Source of the DNA: Acidimicrobiaceae bacterium | GTDB taxonomy: Bacteria > Actinomycetota > Acidimicrobiia > Acidimicrobiales > RAAP-2 | Assembly: GCA_027315315.1 (NCBI GenBank) | Contig: DAHUYG010000033.1 | Location: 1-64,000 of the forward strand | Reading direction: 5' to 3' | Length of the DNA: 64,000 nucleotides | In this document: positions 35,688-42,188 of the stretch, one piece after another | Numbering within the stretch: position 1 is the first letter of the stretch | Layout: every line of letters starts with the position of its first letter | Made by a program: the position numbers and the translations under genes | Notes under the pieces: generated by a model | Seen by the model: the letters and a program-made list of their open reading frames with translations, nothing else | What the model was told of the DNA's origin: nothing | Database searches by the model: none

Positions 35688-36341
35688 TCAAGACAGCGGC
35701 CGCACCTCGTAGGCGCAGACGTGCTGGCCGTCCATCAGGTGGGCGACCCGCTCCACCGTCGCCCCCGGGAGCGCCCGGCGGATGAAGTCGAGCTCGCTCG
35801 AGCAAGCCTGGGCATAGCCCTGGGCCACGGTGAGAATGGCGCAGTTGTGCTCGGTGATGCGCCACCCGCCCCCCTCGAGGACCTCGACGTCCGCGAGGTA
35901 GCCGTCCTCGTCGAGGATCCGCGTGAGCTCGGCCACCTGCTCGGCGAGGGGCAGCTCGGCCAGGCGGGGCGAAGCGCCATCGAGGCGGCGGCGGCCCCGC
36001 CGCTCGAAGAGCGCGTGGACCTCGTCGCTCCCGGGGCCGCCGAGGTAGCCGAGCAGCTCGGCCGTGAGATCCCCGTAGCGCTTCGGGAAGAGCGCCTCGG
36101 CGGCCGAGGTGAGCCCGTAGCGGTGCGCCGGTCGGCCGGGTCCGTCGGGCTCTGGGTGGTGCCGCACCAGGCCGTCCTCGCCCAGGCGATGCAGCTGCTG
36201 GCGCACCGCGGCGGCGGTGATGCCGAGGCGCGCCGCGAGCTCGGCGGTGGTGCTCGCCCCGGAGCGCTTGATCGAGACGAGGATCGCCCGCCTCGTGGTC
36301 GGGAGGTTGGCGAGTGGCGCCGCGTCGAGCCCGCTCGTCAC
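35688..36341 (-). CDS. SufR-like winged-helix regulator with three conserved cysteines
   Basis: A 217-residue regulator. The N-terminal winged helix has TTAELAARLGITAAAVRQQLHRLGEDGLV (about 31-59) and the wing GPGRPAHRYGLT. The C-terminal half matches the SufR/iron-sulfur group in spacing: C167-x12-C180-x13-A194-x14-C209. In SufR all four positions are Cys; here the third is Ala. It could bind a cluster with another ligand or be redox-sensitive. The GTG overlaps the queA stop as GTGA, last in the SDR-queA-regulator operon, so it may autoregulate through the palindrome at 38140. Confidence 0.85.
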   Translation of the reverse strand: MTSGLDAAPLANLPTTRRAILVSIKRSGASTTAELAARLGITAAAVRQQLHRLGEDGLVRHHPEPDGPGRPAHRYGLTSAAEALFPKRYGDLTAELLGYLGGPGSDEVHALFERRGRRRLDGASPRLAELPLAEQVAELTRILDEDGYLADVEVLEGGGWRITEHNCAILTVAQGYAQACSSELDFIRRALPGATVERVAHLMDGQHVCAYEVRPLS

Positions 36342-37411
36342 GGCAGCACCAGGTGCACGTCGCCGAATTCGTGCCAGAGATACCCGCCCGCCACCGCCTC
36401 GGCATATGAGCGCTCGAGCAGCTCGCGCCCTGCGATCGCCTCGAGCATCGCGAGGTGCGACGCCTCGGGCTCGTGCCAGCCGGTGAGGAGCCCGTCGACG
36501 GCGCGCACCGGCCGCTCCGGGGTGATCACGGTCTCGGTCCAGCCCCGTCCCGGACTCACGGTTCCCCGCTCGTCGACCACGGTCTCGAGCGCACGGACCA
36601 CGGTGGTCCCGATGGCCACCACCCGCCCGCCGGCTCGCCTCGTCTCGTTCACGCGCCGAGCGGTGGGGGGCGTCACCCGGAAGTACTCCGCGTAGGGCGC
36701 CTCGTTGGCCTCGAGCGAGGCCACACCGGTGTGCAGCAGCACCGGTGCCACCCCGACGCCCTTCGCGACGAGCCGGGTCAGCACCTCGGGCGTGAAGGGC
36801 CGGCCAGCGCTCGGCATCTCGGCCGAGCCCGGCTCGGTCGCGTACACGTTCTGGTACATGGTGATGGGCCACTCGCCCTGCACGTAGCCGTAGCGGATCG
36901 GGCTGCCGTGCGCCGAGAGGTACGAGAGGAGCGCACCGGGGAGCGAGAGCGAGGCGACCCACAGCCGCACCCCCGAACCGTGGGGCGCGTAGGGGGCGAG
37001 GAGGGTGGCCCGGCCGCCCCCCGGGAGGGCGAGCTCGTCGCCGGCTGAGGCGCCGAGGTGCGGACCGCCGTCCCGGCGCAGCTCGACGGTCCACAGGCCG
37101 GCCGGCAGCTCGGTCGAAAGGTGCAGCTCGAGGGCCATGCCGCCGGCGTCGGTGGCCGGCAGACCGGCCGCGAGGGTCCCCGAGGTGTTGACCACCACGA
37201 GGTCCCCCTCCTCGAGGAACCCGGGCAGCGCCGAGAAGTCGCTGTGCACGATGGAGAGGTCGCTGCGCCGGGCGACCATCATCCGCACCGCGTCCCGGGT
37301 CAGCCCGCGGGCCTCGGGGGGCATGCTCGCCTCGAGCGCCGGGGGCAGCTCGAAGCTGAGCGCCGCGACCCGGATCGGCGCCCGCGGGCTGGCGGTGGCG
37401 GTGGCGCTCAT
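36338..37411 (-). CDS. QueA-like S-adenosylmethionine:tRNA ribosyltransferase-isomerase family protein
   Basis: A 357-residue QueA-fold protein. It keeps SDLSIVHSDFSALPGFLEEGDLVVVNTSGTL, SAEMPSAGRPFT, LLHTGVASLEANEAPYAEYFRV and VVAIGTTVVRALETV, all core QueA blocks. QueA makes epoxyqueuosine from preQ1-tRNA, but no other queuosine gene is in the window and the neighbours are an SDR and a regulator. The real substrate is uncertain. The ATG overlaps the SDR stop (ATGA), and the regulator GTG overlaps its stop (GTGA). Confidence 0.88.
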   Translation of the reverse strand: MSATATASPRAPIRVAALSFELPPALEASMPPEARGLTRDAVRMMVARRSDLSIVHSDFSALPGFLEEGDLVVVNTSGTLAAGLPATDAGGMALELHLSTELPAGLWTVELRRDGGPHLGASAGDELALPGGGRATLLAPYAPHGSGVRLWVASLSLPGALLSYLSAHGSPIRYGYVQGEWPITMYQNVYATEPGSAEMPSAGRPFTPEVLTRLVAKGVGVAPVLLHTGVASLEANEAPYAEYFRVTPPTARRVNETRRAGGRVVAIGTTVVRALETVVDERGTVSPGRGWTETVITPERPVRAVDGLLTGWHEPEASHLAMLEAIAGRELLERSYAEAVAGGYLWHEFGDVHLVLP

Positions 37412-38103
37412 CGCAGCGCCACCTGCGACGCGCGCACCCGCCCGCTCGGGCGTTCGCTCTCGATCAGCGCCACGATGGCCGGCACGACCTCCTCGGGCGG
37501 GGGCCGGTCGGAGATGTCCTCGCCGGGGAACGCGTCCTGGTGCATCTGGGTGCGCATGTCGCCCGGGTCGAGCGCCCACACCGTGACGTCGGGCTCCTCG
37601 AGCGCGAGGACCGCGCTCAGGTAGTCGAGGGCGGCCTTCGACGACCCGTAGCCACCCCATCCCTCGTAGTGCTCCACCGAGGCGTCCGAGGTGATGTTGA
37701 GGATCCTCGGCCGCGCCGAGCGGTGGAGCAGGCCGAGCCCGGCCTGGATGAGCGCCAGGGGGGCGATCACGTTTACCTCGTACGCGCGGCGGAACGCCGC
37801 GAGGGGATAGTCGGACAGCTCGGGCAGGGGTGAGAGGCCGAGCGTGCTCGCGTTGTTCACCAGGAGATCGAGGCCACCGAGCTCCCGGGCCGCCTCGATG
37901 AGGGCGTCGCGGTGCGCTGCCTCGGCGACGTCGCCGGCGATCGCCTCGAGGACGCGACCGGGCGACGACAGGGCACGCTCGGTGGCGGCCAGCGCCTCGG
38001 GGTCCCGGGCGTCGGTGACGACCGACCATCCCCCCGAGAGCAGCGCCCCCACGAGCGCCTTCCCCAACCCCTTCGAGCCTCCGGTGACCACGGCGATCGG
38101 CAT
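37408..38103 (-). CDS. Short-chain dehydrogenase/reductase
   Basis: A 231-residue classical SDR: cofactor loop TGGSKGLGKAL, DARDPEAL after the second strand (an acidic residue, NAD rather than NADP), LLVNNAS, ITSD, and the catalytic YGSSK. First gene of a three-gene coupled operon with a QueA-like protein and a SufR-like regulator. Its promoter is AT-rich with a palindrome. Substrate unknown. The tight linkage to QueA suggests it acts on the same nucleoside or small molecule. Confidence 0.9.
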   Translation of the reverse strand: MPIAVVTGGSKGLGKALVGALLSGGWSVVTDARDPEALAATERALSSPGRVLEAIAGDVAEAAHRDALIEAARELGGLDLLVNNASTLGLSPLPELSDYPLAAFRRAYEVNVIAPLALIQAGLGLLHRSARPRILNITSDASVEHYEGWGGYGSSKAALDYLSAVLALEEPDVTVWALDPGDMRTQMHQDAFPGEDISDRPPPEEVVPAIVALIESERPSGRVRASQVALR

Positions 38104-38139
38104 CTGGGTCCCCTTCTGCAGGCGGTGCTCGCCCGACTA

Positions 38140-38182
38140 TCGGTATTTAACCGACAATATTCTTGCTTTATTGCCGACGCAA
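38140..38182 (-). promoter_or_regulatory. Promoter and palindrome of the SDR-queA-regulator operon
   Basis: Minus strand: TTGCGT (38182-38177), 17 bases, TATTGT (38159-38154), then at once the palindrome TCGGT-TAAAT-ACCGA (38154-38140) covering the start point. The region is strikingly AT-rich for this genome. A repressor bound there would block initiation. The SufR-like regulator of the operon is the obvious candidate. Confidence 0.65.
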
Positions 38183-38203: not shown

Positions 38204-38806
38204 TCAGGGGGCGAGCCGCTCCAGGCGCCACCCGGCCGGCTCCCGTCGGTACACGAGCCGATCGTGCAGCCGGTCGTCCTGGTGCTGCCAGAACTCGACG
38301 GCGTGCGGCACGAGGCGGAAGCCGCCCCAGGTCGACGGGCGCGGGACCTCGGCGCCGGCGAAGCGCTCCTCGAGGGCGGCGAAGGCTGCCTCGAGGACGG
38401 CCCGGTCCCTGAGCGGCCGGCTCTGCTCGGAGGCCCGGGCGGCCAGCTGGCTTCGCTGCCGCCGGCCGGCGAAGTAAGCGTCGGACTCCTCGGCGCCGGT
38501 GCGCACGACCGCACCCTCGGCCCGGACCTGGCGGCCGAGCGGCTCCCAGTACGCGACAAGCGCACCCCGGGGGTTGGCGGCGAGCTCCTCGCCCTTGCGG
38601 CTGGCGTAGTTGGTGAAGAAGACGAACCCGCGCTCGTCCCAGTGCTTGAGGAGCACCATGCGCACCGACGGCGCGCCCGAAGCGTCCGCGGTCGCAAGCG
38701 CGATCGCCTCGGGCTGGCGCAGCGAGCCCGAGGCGATGGCGAACCACGCGGCGAACTGGGTGAACGGGTCGGCGGCGAAGTCCGCCTCGCGCAGGAAGTC
38801 GGCCAC
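38204..38806 (-). CDS. pdxH: Pyridoxamine 5'-phosphate oxidase
   Basis: A 200-residue FMN enzyme that oxidises PNP or PMP to pyridoxal phosphate. It has SVRMVLLKHWDERGFVFFTNYASRKGEEL (FMN contacts), YWEPLGRQVRAEG, and WGGFRLVPHAVEFWQ with the terminal RLHDRLVYRR (substrate-binding arginine/histidine). The GTG start lies three bases after the tsaD stop. Its product is the cofactor of Alr, encoded five kilobases upstream in the same direction. Confidence 0.94.
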   Translation of the reverse strand: MADFLREADFAADPFTQFAAWFAIASGSLRQPEAIALATADASGAPSVRMVLLKHWDERGFVFFTNYASRKGEELAANPRGALVAYWEPLGRQVRAEGAVVRTGAEESDAYFAGRRQRSQLAARASEQSRPLRDRAVLEAAFAALEERFAGAEVPRPSTWGGFRLVPHAVEFWQHQDDRLHDRLVYRREPAGWRLERLAP

Positions 38807-38809
38807 CGC

Positions 38810-39811
38810 TCAACCGGCCTCGGCGAGGAACAGGTTGGGCTCGGCCCCGAGCGACCAGGGGCTCGGGCCGCCGTGGGCCAGCCGCCACTGCCCCGCAGCC
38901 GCGATCATGGCGGCGTTGTCGGTGCACATCGCCATGCTCGGCACGAGCGCGGCGATCCCATCCTCGGCACAGGCCTCCTCGGTGCGGCTCCTGAGGAGCG
39001 AGTTCGCCGCCACCCCCCCGGCCAGACAGATCCCGCGCGCCCCGGTTGTGGCGGCGGCCCGGCGGGCCTTGGCCACGAGGACGTCCACGACCGCCTCCTG
39101 GAAGGAGGCCGCGACGTCCTCGGTCGAGGCGCCGGGGGCCTTGTCGACGCTGCGCACAACGGCGGTCTTCAGACCCGAGAAGGAGAAGTCGCAGCCCTCG
39201 TCGCGCATCGCCCGGGGGAAGGCGAAGGCGCGCCCGTCGCCGTCGCGAGCGACCCGGTCGATCGCGGGTCCCCCGGGATATCCGAGGCCGAGGTAGCGGG
39301 CCACCTTGTCGAACGCCTCGCCCGCCGCGTCGTCAAGGGTCTGGCCGAGCAGTCGGTAGCGGCCGAGGCCCTCCACGAGCACGAGGACGGTGTGGCCACC
39401 CGAGACGAGGAGCACCACGAGGGGCCAGTCGAGCTCGCGGTGGTCGAGGAGCGACGCGAAGAGGTGGCCCTCGAGGTGGTTCACGCCGACGAAGGGCACC
39501 TCCCACGCCATCGCCAGCGCCTTCGCGTGGCTGAGCCCGACGAGCAGCGAGCCGACGAGGCCGGGCCCGCAGGTCGCGGCGACGGCGTCGACCGGCGGGT
39601 GTCCGGCCGGTCCCGCGGCGGCGAGCGCCTCGTCGATCACCGGGGTCAACCGCTCGAGGTGGGCGCGCCCGGCGAGCTCGGGGACGACGCCGCCGTAGCG
39701 GGCGTGCAGGTCGACCTGGCTCGAGACGACCGACGACAGCACGACCCGGCCGGGCCCGACCACCGCCGCCGCCGTCTCGTCGCAGGAGGTCTCGATCCCG
39801 AGCACCCTCAC
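38810..39811 (-). CDS. tsaD: tRNA N6-adenosine threonylcarbamoyltransferase
   Basis: A 333-residue Kae1/TsaD ASKHA-fold enzyme that attaches the threonylcarbamoyl group to A37 of ANN-decoding tRNAs. It has VLGIETSCDET at the start, the metal-binding HLEGH motif (VNHLEGHLFA), LVSGGHT, and LAGGVAANSLLR near the end. The GTG overlaps the rimI stop (GTGA). It works with TsaB and TsaE, both encoded just upstream here. TsaC is not in the window. Confidence 0.97.
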   Translation of the reverse strand: MRVLGIETSCDETAAAVVGPGRVVLSSVVSSQVDLHARYGGVVPELAGRAHLERLTPVIDEALAAAGPAGHPPVDAVAATCGPGLVGSLLVGLSHAKALAMAWEVPFVGVNHLEGHLFASLLDHRELDWPLVVLLVSGGHTVLVLVEGLGRYRLLGQTLDDAAGEAFDKVARYLGLGYPGGPAIDRVARDGDGRAFAFPRAMRDEGCDFSFSGLKTAVVRSVDKAPGASTEDVAASFQEAVVDVLVAKARRAAATTGARGICLAGGVAANSLLRSRTEEACAEDGIAALVPSMAMCTDNAAMIAAAGQWRLAHGGPSPWSLGAEPNLFLAEAG

Positions 39812-40347
39812 GGCGCGACCGCGGGCCTCGAGCGGACCTCCCCCTCCAGGGCGGCGATGCGCTGCGCGTACTGGGGGGTGTCGATCTCGTAGGCGAACAT
39901 GACGTAGGCGTCCTCGCCGGTCATCTGGTAGTAGCCCTTGCGGACGCCGACCGGTGCGAAGCCGAAGCGTCGGTACAGGGCCTGGGCGCCGTGGTTCGAG
40001 AAGGCCACCTCCAAGGAGAGCTGGTTCGCCCCGGACTCGATCGAGACCGCCACGGCGTCGAGCAGGAGCACGGTCGCGATCCCGCGTCGCTGGTACTCGG
40101 GAGCGACCGCGATCGTCGTCACATGCGCCTCGGGTCCGGTCAGCATCACCCCCCGGTAGCCGACGATCCGCCGGCCGAGCCGGGCCACGCGGTACGAGCG
40201 TCCGTGGCGCAGCGCCAGCTCCGAGCCGAAGATCGTCGAGCTCCACGGCTCGGGGAAGACCCGCTTCTCGATGTCGAGCACGGCCTTCAGGTCGCGACGG
40301 TGCATCTGATGGAGGCTCAGCCCCTCGAGCGCGCTCGCCTCACGCAT
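39808..40347 (-). CDS. rimI: Ribosomal protein S18-alanine N-acetyltransferase
   Basis: A 179-residue GNAT with LHQMHRRDLKAVLDIEKRVFPEPWSS, typical of RimI, then VTTIAVAPEYQRRGIATVLL (acetyl-CoA loop) and SNHGAQALYRRFGFAPVGVRKGYY. It acetylates the N-terminal alanine of S18. Its place between tsaB and tsaD is the standard actinobacterial order. The ATG lies within the last eight bases of tsaB. Confidence 0.94.
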   Translation of the reverse strand: MREASALEGLSLHQMHRRDLKAVLDIEKRVFPEPWSSTIFGSELALRHGRSYRVARLGRRIVGYRGVMLTGPEAHVTTIAVAPEYQRRGIATVLLLDAVAVSIESGANQLSLEVAFSNHGAQALYRRFGFAPVGVRKGYYQMTGEDAYVMFAYEIDTPQYAQRIAALEGEVRSRPAVAP

Positions 40348-41062
40348 CGGCGGGTCCCACCGACTCGCGCCGGACCCAGTTGATCCGGGCATCGGCGCCG
40401 CGCATGTACTGCGCCTGCAGGTCGATCGCGGCGAGAGGCGGGGCGCCGGCGGCCAGGCGCCGGGCGCCGAGCGAGGCGAGCGTCGCCGGACTCGGGTGGG
40501 CGTGGGTCCCGTCGGCCAGCGTGACCCCGGCCTGGTCGGCCAGGAGCTCGCGGTAGCGCACCGCGCCGTCTCCCAGCGCGAGGGTGCCCGTGGCACCGTC
40601 CACCAGCGCGGCGATCCCCTCGGGTCGGCACCGCACCGGCGTGCTCAGCGCGACCGGCACGCCGGTCGGGCCGCGCCCATAGCGCGCCGCGAAGACCTCG
40701 CCGCGCCGGGCGTCGACCACCGCGAGCACCGGGCCCGCCCAGCCGCCGTCGAGCGCCGCCGCGGCGAGCGTCTCGAGGCTCGTGCACCCGACCAGGCCGG
40801 TGCCGAGCGCCTGGGCGATGCCCTTGGCGGTGGCCACCCCGACCCGCAGCCCGGTGAACAGCCCGGGCCCGACGTCCACCGCGATCGCGTCGAGCTCGCC
40901 GAGCGTGACCCCGGCCCGGCCGAGGACCTCGGCGATCGCCGGCGCCAGCACCTCGGCGTGCCTTCGGCCGCCCGTCTCGCACACCTCGGCCACCGTCTCG
41001 CCCTCGCGGTGCAACGCCGCCCCCACCAGATCGGTCGCCGACTCGATGCCCAGCACGATCAT
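40340..41062 (-). CDS. tsaB: tRNA t6A synthesis accessory protein TsaB
   Basis: A 240-residue ASKHA-fold partner of TsaD. It starts (M)IVLGIESATDLVGAAL, has GGRRHAEVLAPAIAEVL, and IAVDVGPGLFTGLRVGVATAKG, the family signature. It lacks the metal-binding histidines of TsaD, as expected for the non-catalytic subunit. Start and stop overlap its neighbours (ATGA with tsaE). Confidence 0.95.
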   Translation of the reverse strand: MIVLGIESATDLVGAALHREGETVAEVCETGGRRHAEVLAPAIAEVLGRAGVTLGELDAIAVDVGPGLFTGLRVGVATAKGIAQALGTGLVGCTSLETLAAAALDGGWAGPVLAVVDARRGEVFAARYGRGPTGVPVALSTPVRCRPEGIAALVDGATGTLALGDGAVRYRELLADQAGVTLADGTHAHPSPATLASLGARRLAAGAPPLAAIDLQAQYMRGADARINWVRRESVGPADA

Positions 41063-41577
41063 CTCGGGGCGACCGCCTCGGCCATCGCCGCCCGGCGGTC
41101 GCTCCACGGGGCGCCCCGGCCGACGAGGGTGACGGCGCGCCGCTCCGCGCCCTCGCCCGACCCGTTGGTCTCCGGGACGAGGGTGATCTCGAGCGCGCCC
41201 TCGCCCAGTGCCGGCGCGCCGACGTCGCCCCATTCGACGAGGGCCACAGCGTCGCCCTCGAGCAGCTCGGGGAGCGCGAGATCCGCCACCTCGGCCAGGT
41301 GGTCGAGCCGGTAGAGGTCGGCGTGGAGGAGCTGACGCACCGGTGCGCCGGGTCCGCAACGGTACTGGCGCACGAGGGTGAAGGTCGGGCTGGTCACCGG
41401 CCCCTCCACCCCGAGCCCGGCGGCGAAGCCCTGTGCGAGGACGGTCTTGCCCGCCCCGAGGCCGCCGACGAGGAGCACCAGGTCGCCCGGGCGCGCCAAT
41501 GCGCCGAGCGCTGCGCCGAGCCGGCGGGTCGACTCGGGGTCATCGCTGTGCACGATGAGCGACCACGGGTCACTCAC
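41059..41577 (-). CDS. tsaE: tRNA t6A synthesis ATPase TsaE
   Basis: A 172-residue P-loop protein: LVGGLGAGKTVLAQGFAAGLG (Walker A), SPTFTLVRQY, LLHADLYRLD (Walker B-like) and VALVEWGD, all standard for TsaE. It hydrolyses ATP to turn over the TsaBD complex. The GTG overlaps the stop of the uracil-DNA glycosylase gene as GTGA. Confidence 0.95.
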   Translation of the reverse strand: MSDPWSLIVHSDDPESTRRLGAALGALARPGDLVLLVGGLGAGKTVLAQGFAAGLGVEGPVTSPTFTLVRQYRCGPGAPVRQLLHADLYRLDHLAEVADLALPELLEGDAVALVEWGDVGAPALGEGALEITLVPETNGSGEGAERRAVTLVGRGAPWSDRRAAMAEAVAPR

Positions 41578-42188
41578 CCGCGACCGAGCTCCGGGACAGC
41601 CGGCGCCCCGCCGGCGGCGACCGCGAGCAACCGCTTGGCCCGGACGAGGTCGGCCCGCATCTCGGCGAGGACCTGGCCCCCGGAGCGCAGCGCAAAGGCC
41701 GGATGGTAGGTGGGCACGAGCTGCCCGCGGCGGAACGGGTAGGCGCGCCCGCGCAGCGCCCGGATGCCCTCGGAGGTGCCGAGGAGCAGACGCGCCGCGA
41801 AGTTGCCGAGGGTCACCACCACGCTCGGGTCGATGAGCTCGATCTGGGAAGCAAGGTAGGGGCGGCACGCCTCGATCTCGTCAGGCAGCGGGTCGCGATT
41901 CTCCGGCGGCCGGCACTTCACGACGTTCGCGATGTAGCACCGGCTCCGGTCCATCGACAGCTCCTCTTGCATCAGTCGGTCGAGGAGCTTGCCCGAACGC
42001 CCGACGAAGGGCTCCCCGGCGAGGTCCTCCTCGCGGCCGGGGCCCTCGCCCACGAACATGAGCCGGGCGTGCGGGTCCCCGACGCCGAAGACGACCTGGG
42101 TGCGACCCCGGGACAGGGGGCAGCGCACGCAGTCCAACGCCTCCGCCCGCAGGGCCTCGAACGCGACGGGCGAGCCTGGCCCGACCAC
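41574..42188 (-). CDS. Family 4 uracil-DNA glycosylase with iron-sulfur cluster
   Basis: A 204-residue glycosylase that removes uracil from DNA. Motif A is [22 protein letters not shown], and motif B is [10 protein letters not shown]. Four cysteines in the family spacing (CVRC near 20-23, KCRPPENR, and EACRPYL) would hold a 4Fe-4S cluster. GTG start. It begins a run of genes coupled by 4-base overlaps through tsaE, tsaB, rimI and tsaD. Confidence 0.92.

Follow-up and report, generated by a model that had tools for sequence, protein, structure and literature searches.

An acidimicrobial SDR and QueA-paralogue module that is probably redox-controlled and does not appear to serve queuosine synthesis

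Three genes on the minus strand of the window, the whole 64,000-nucleotide stretch of DNA analysed here, follow one another without a gap: an SDR oxidoreductase (gene 1, 37408..38103), a QueA-like enzyme that we treat as a paralogue of QueA (gene 2, 36338..37411), and a SufR-like winged-helix regulator (gene 3, 35688..36341). ORF reading places four-base stop/start overlaps at both junctions, ATGA between the SDR and QueA-like genes (37408..37411, minus strand) and GTGA between the QueA-like and regulator genes (36338..36341, minus strand), just as the sequence-only reading had described them. The Pfam families are SDR, Queuosine_synth and winged helix for genes 1, 2 and 3, and the best NCBIfam matches are QueA for gene 2 and SufR for gene 3, both below the curated equivalog cut-offs. 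The host genome is a 2.47-Mb draft, 91.85% complete, and the nearest named relative via the QueA-like gene is another Acidimicrobiaceae bacterium, a sister species (L031; 86% identity). Upstream of the SDR gene, the minus strand carries pdxH (Pfam-confirmed) and the t6A genes tsaD, rimI, tsaB and tsaE (assigned from ORF reading) within 38204-41868, and groES/groEL lie downstream of the three-gene set. The pdxH/tsaD link is retained in L031 only and the groES/groEL link in L034/L035 only, so rarely that both look like local gene order and not function. An Rfam scan of the window returned no riboswitch or other known RNA element, and the idea of a defence system was dropped, PADLOC having matched nothing beyond the regulator's generic HTH.

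How far does the product of gene 2 resemble QueA? It matches PF02547 over its full length (249.6 bits, cut-off 25) and falls below the QueA equivalogs NF001140 (171.7, cut-off 324) and TIGR00113 (149.6, cut-off 267.45). On NF001140, the main equivalog model, five QueA-like proteins score 168-204, whereas five canonical QueAs from this order reach 321-404 and, on TIGR00113, 245-347, four of them lying above both cut-offs; with canonical sequences of the same order scoring this high, the failure of the QueA-like proteins is no lineage effect. A tree of 115 proteins separates the QueA-like sequences from the rest by a branch of length 1.82 with an SH-aLRT of 100, and their clade extends over seven phyla (Actinomycetota, Chloroflexota, Deinococcota, Gemmatimonadota, Latescibacterota, Bacteroidota and Acidobacteriota), several of them represented by single metagenome-assembled genomes. 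At least 584 QueA-like loci were matched in one genome collection, the 80 best of which were surveyed, with distant members consequently under-sampled. At about 30 positions the QueA-like and the canonical group are each conserved, yet in different residues, the canonical reference sequences of this comparison coming mostly from one order. Thus AAPTAGLHF of Thermotoga maritima QueA reads EMPSAGRPF in the window, TNFHLP reads TGWHEP, the C-terminal RFFSFGDAM reads LWHEFGDVH, and H217/H220 (1VKY numbering) are replaced by E237/Y240, so that the protein deviates from QueA in all of the conserved motifs PTAGLHF, TNFHLP and H217/H220. The core common to both groups comprises N75, Y186-Q187, R263, G268-T269-T270, R273, E276, H313 and G350-D351. 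The predicted structure (pLDDT 92.4) aligns over 276-291 residues with the QueA structures 1VKY, 1YY3 and 1WDI (Z 26.8-28.6), and no other structure exceeds Z 6.8; the large rmsd of 7.6-9.0 in this model probably reflects domain arrangement.

In queuosine synthesis, Tgt is needed for the entry of preQ1 into tRNA and supplies preQ1-tRNA. Our search of the host genome, which covered Tgt, PF02547 and QueC, gave no match for Tgt (14 of 14 controls positive), a single PF02547 protein, namely that of the window, and hence no canonical QueA, and for QueC only a sub-cut-off fragment. The doubt raised by the earlier remark that other queuosine genes are missing nearby thereby holds for Tgt and canonical QueA, and the full pathway, whose presence had been named as counter-evidence, is not there, Tgt being absent. 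Full-length PF02547 matches in 61 genomes of the order fall into two classes, separated by score alone and including some fragments and several draft genomes: a high class above 310 bits (30 genomes) and a low class below about 265 bits (17 genomes, fragments counted), with both classes in six genomes. Tgt accompanies the high class, canonical QueA, in 30 of 30 genomes and is found in none of the 11 with the low class only. A sample of 149 Actinomycetota genomes that are 90% complete or better, tallied from tables and subjected to Fisher tests, divides in the same way (81/81 with canonical QueA versus 0/24 with the QueA-like protein only). Ten further Actinomycetota genomes have a Tgt-family match, one of them sub-cut-off, and no PF02547 protein (among them G141, G142, G152, G156, G174, G200, G220 and G250), possibly because they salvage queuine or use Tgt in some other way. 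Within a multi-phylum set of 44 genomes bearing the QueA-like gene, canonical QueA occurs in 31, all with Tgt, and 11 have neither; the remaining two have Tgt and no detected canonical QueA (G093, and G063 with a Tgt fragment). Isolates with the QueA-like gene, for example Kutzneria and Virgisporangium, also lack Tgt. Many Chloroflexota encode a second Tgt-family protein of about 300-318 bits besides the standard one (loci L053, L054, L067, L071, L081, L085, L086 and L098; genomes G065, G066, G074, G075, G079, G081, G082 and G087). The distribution of Tgt, QueA and the QueA-like gene across these samples argues for independence of the latter from queuosine synthesis, and we regard it as nearly certain that the module does not serve this pathway.

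The partner of the QueA-like enzyme is a classical SDR by its PF00106 match (E 4e-35), its conserved Gly-rich cofactor motif and the N-S-Y-K residues N111, S139, Y152 and K156. Of 96 loci, which include a few genomes entered twice, 90 have an SDR of a single orthologous type immediately ahead of the QueA-like gene and in the same orientation; the other six are unjudgeable because the QueA-like gene starts less than 140 bases from a contig end. The two genes overlap by four bases in 35 of the 88 measured pairs. In 13 loci the SDR reaches 363-388 aa because a glyoxalase/VOC domain is fused behind it, and in about six the VOC domain is encoded by a gene of its own between the pair, the VOC assignment being Pfam-confirmed for four proteins (L118, L052, L083 and L122). 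Visual inspection did not show the usual metal ligands in the fused VOC domains, which may therefore bind and not convert. Open reading frames in the SDR/QueA-like gaps of L059, L100 and L123 were considered as VOC genes and discarded, as they look like chance readings. A co-occurrence survey had been suggested for the three genes together; the pairing of SDR and QueA-like gene proves deeply conserved, the regulator, however, replaceable, by a SufR-like protein in some loci and a two-component system in others. Judged by gene neighbourhood, the invariant core is SDR plus QueA-like gene and not the three-gene set.

The regulator of the window has TIGR02702 as its best NCBIfam match (108.7 bits, below the equivalog cut-off of 178.8). 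Its motif C167-x12-C180-x28-C209 corresponds to positions 1, 2 and 4 of the SufR cluster cysteines C-x12-C-x13-C-x14-C (PMC8593673), position 3 being Ala, and the three cysteines are invariant among 11 orthologues. Orthologues above 200 bits occur in nine of the 61 genomes of the order, all nine with the QueA-like gene (9/17 versus 0/44 without it); in four of the nine the regulator lies away from the SDR/QueA-like pair, and it is linked in a minority of QueA-like loci. More distant SufR-like homologues with 41-44% identity, unlinked to the pair, are found at G002:C59:6163-6792 and in L156. Elsewhere, in many Chloroflexota and in Rubrobacter, the pair is accompanied by a GAF sensor kinase with cysteines and a LuxR-type response regulator, each of which clusters with 25 loci in varying order and orientation; 18 of these kinases have C-x-C-x17-19-C. 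Five loci (L116, L120, L122, L124 and L126), from Micromonosporaceae, Pseudonocardiaceae and a Sporichthyaceae bin, have a neighbouring GAF kinase on the opposite strand and without the cysteine motif. Since other lineages place a second, unrelated cysteine-type sensor beside the pair, demand for the product would seem to depend on the redox, NO or iron state.

A sigma-70 consensus promoter gave no match ahead of the SDR gene. The conserved promoter element is AATAAAGnAAG, represented in the window by AATAAAGCAAG (38162..38172, minus strand), the proposed left arm of an operator, and TTAAAT (38145..38150, minus strand) is a candidate -10 by its position relative to this element and by comparison with relatives by eye. 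In the more distant promoters with a linked regulator the element makes up the left half of an inverted repeat with a six-base spacer (N6), for example AAAGATAG-ATAACA-CTATCTTT in L049 and AAAACAAG-ATAATC-CTTGTTAT in L050. The element in the form TAAAnn[ATC]AG is present in 10 of 11 SDR promoters with a linked regulator versus 1 of 68 others, a difference whose p value is optimistic since the pattern was picked after the sequences were seen. The repeat is clear in six of the 11 linked-regulator promoters; in the window, conservation is confined to the left arm, the right arm being poor (at most 5 of 8 pairs). Among acidimicrobial promoters without a linked regulator, 6 of 12 carry N6 repeats (expected 0.18), versus 4 of 56 other promoters (expected 1.3), and for three of these repeat-bearing promoters (L036, L037 and L040) the genome encodes an orthologue of the regulator at an unlinked site. 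The SufR homologue of L156 has TACAAG-TATAGC-CTTGTA upstream of its own gene. Upstream of the SDR genes of L032, L038 and L095, which have no linked SufR-like gene, another common element, AAGTTCACTT or similar, is seen, in L032 as TTAAAGTTCACTTTA. Known SufR proteins bind CAAC-N6-GTTG, which overlaps the -10 in Streptomyces avermitilis (PMC8593673, PMC11995493). The sequence-only reading had placed the operator at the palindrome TCGGT-N5-ACCGA (38140..38154, assigned to neither strand), TCGGTATTTAACCGA. The palindrome exists and straddles the candidate -10; however, the 2.47-Mb genome has two copies of it, with about two predicted from base composition, a 5-N5-5 repeat arises in 4.9% of shuffled versions of the 75-bp upstream stretch (20.9% for spacers of 3-8), and the palindrome is absent from L031, whose QueA-like protein is 86% identical, and from L034/L035. 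By these comparisons it is probably incidental and not the operator, and we set it aside in favour of the conserved AATAAAGCAAG.

What can be concluded about the physiological role of the locus? We consider it a redox-controlled operon around a conserved module of SDR and QueA paralogue that does not make queuosine, with a probability of roughly 55%. The SufR-like repressor would carry an Fe-S cluster on its three cysteines and, in the unstressed cell, sit in its holo-form on an operator of the AATAAAGnAAG / CAAG-N6-CTTG type over the core promoter; damage to the cluster by oxidants, NO or iron shortage would free the promoter, and SDR, QueA-like enzyme and regulator would then be made from one coupled transcript. 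The action of such an Fe-S repressor on the SDR promoter appears likely. To our knowledge, no member of the family other than QueA has been characterised, and QueA has an unusual chemistry. In its reaction, the ribosyl group of SAM is both transferred and isomerised (PMC1282579). In the QueA-like enzyme, SAM would still be the ribosyl donor, the C5 unit would pass not to preQ1-tRNA but to some other acceptor (probably a small amine), and oxidation or reduction of the substrate or the product would fall to the SDR. As the paralogue retains much of the core and not the preQ1-tRNA context, another acceptor is the simplest idea, and the pattern of retained residues leads us to propose SAM-dependent ribosyl transfer to it tentatively, at close to even odds. 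More doubtful is the full extension of this idea, a second natural QueA chemistry, widespread and induced by redox signals, in which ribosyl carbons of SAM are moved to a non-tRNA acceptor and, with processing by the SDR (and VOC), yield a carbocyclic metabolite or cofactor not described so far. Within the literature on QueA available to us, mostly titles and abstracts and exclusive of subscription journals and preprints, we found no QueA paralogue outside queuosine synthesis.

The many altered QueA positions could also mean a loss of SAM chemistry. The fold may have been reused, alongside the SDR, for a different SAM reaction, for hydrolysis or for binding, an explanation that draws on the roughly 30 differing conserved positions, with H, R and E/L changes in the motifs; strong conservation of the altered positions and the large common core accord with a re-tuned catalyst, and we hold the loss of ribosyl transfer to be fairly unlikely. 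An RNA-modifying enzyme acting on a different tRNA or rRNA nucleoside, with the SDR completing the modification, would agree with the action of canonical QueA on tRNA and with the modification pathway proposed from the sequence, and reduction by the SDR could parallel the role of QueG; the VOC and SDR partners and the stress-type regulators, however, suit small-molecule metabolism at least equally, which makes this alternative unlikely. Of that redox-controlled modification pathway, the redox part gains from the three cysteines at SufR cluster positions, but nothing points to a nucleic-acid acceptor. That the SufR-like gene is the general suf regulator of the genome, located behind the operon by chance, we judge quite improbable: it is the only SufR-family match in a genome that has suf genes elsewhere, but these genes lie on another contig, no N6 motif is present in the 11 kb around them, the half-site marks SDR promoters instead, and orthologues are confined to genomes with the QueA-like gene, so that a tie to suf is unsupported. 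Hardly credible is a diverged ordinary QueA making epoxyqueuosine on tRNA, with tgt lost to an assembly gap, as the full-length PF02547 match, the QueA fold and the 92% complete draft might allow, given that Tgt is present in 0/11 and 0/24 of the QueA-like-only genomes of the order and phylum samples and is missing from the Kutzneria and Virgisporangium isolates, that many genomes hold both forms, and that conserved positions are switched.

Returning to the proposed redox-controlled operon, the QueA-like clade is a large, widespread and unnamed relative of QueA, and the module suggests a metabolic step under stress control that has not been described. Since QueA is the best-named match of this sister clade, bacteria without queuosine synthesis can be annotated as having it. 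With the constant SDR partner, the SDR-VOC fusions and two unrelated cysteine-type regulators as leads, the function can be tested directly in cultured isolates, for example Kutzneria buriramensis, Herpetosiphon aurantiacus or Thermogemmatispora tikiterensis.

Among known systems, QueA (1VKY, 1YY3, 1WDI) shares with the QueA-like protein its fold, full-length homology at 31-35% identity and the core residues, whereas the latter stands in a separate clade with some 30 switched positions, scores below the equivalogs, resides in a genome without Tgt and is partnered by an SDR. The two-component systems of other lineages recall AirSR in combining a GAF histidine kinase carrying C-x-C-x17-19-C with a LuxR/NarL-type response regulator; however, most of these kinases lack the first cysteine of the AirS [2Fe-2S] motif C-x7-C-x-C-x17-C (PMC4601167), and the window has no such system. 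The regulator of the window resembles SufR of cyanobacteria, Rv1460 and the protein of S. avermitilis in its winged helix and its cysteines 1, 2 and 4 and, among its relatives, in promoter repeats with a six-base spacer, but it scores below TIGR02702, has Ala for the third cysteine and is encoded last in an SDR/QueA-like operon, not beside suf. Mycobacterial Rv1460 needs three cysteines, and three suffice, which makes them comparable to the three of the window regulator (PMC6034842). The half-site is CAAC for SufR versus CAAG/ATAG in promoters of the window-type regulator, and the SDR promoters of the relatives display the same N6-repeat geometry as the known SufR sites (PMC8593673, PMC11995493).
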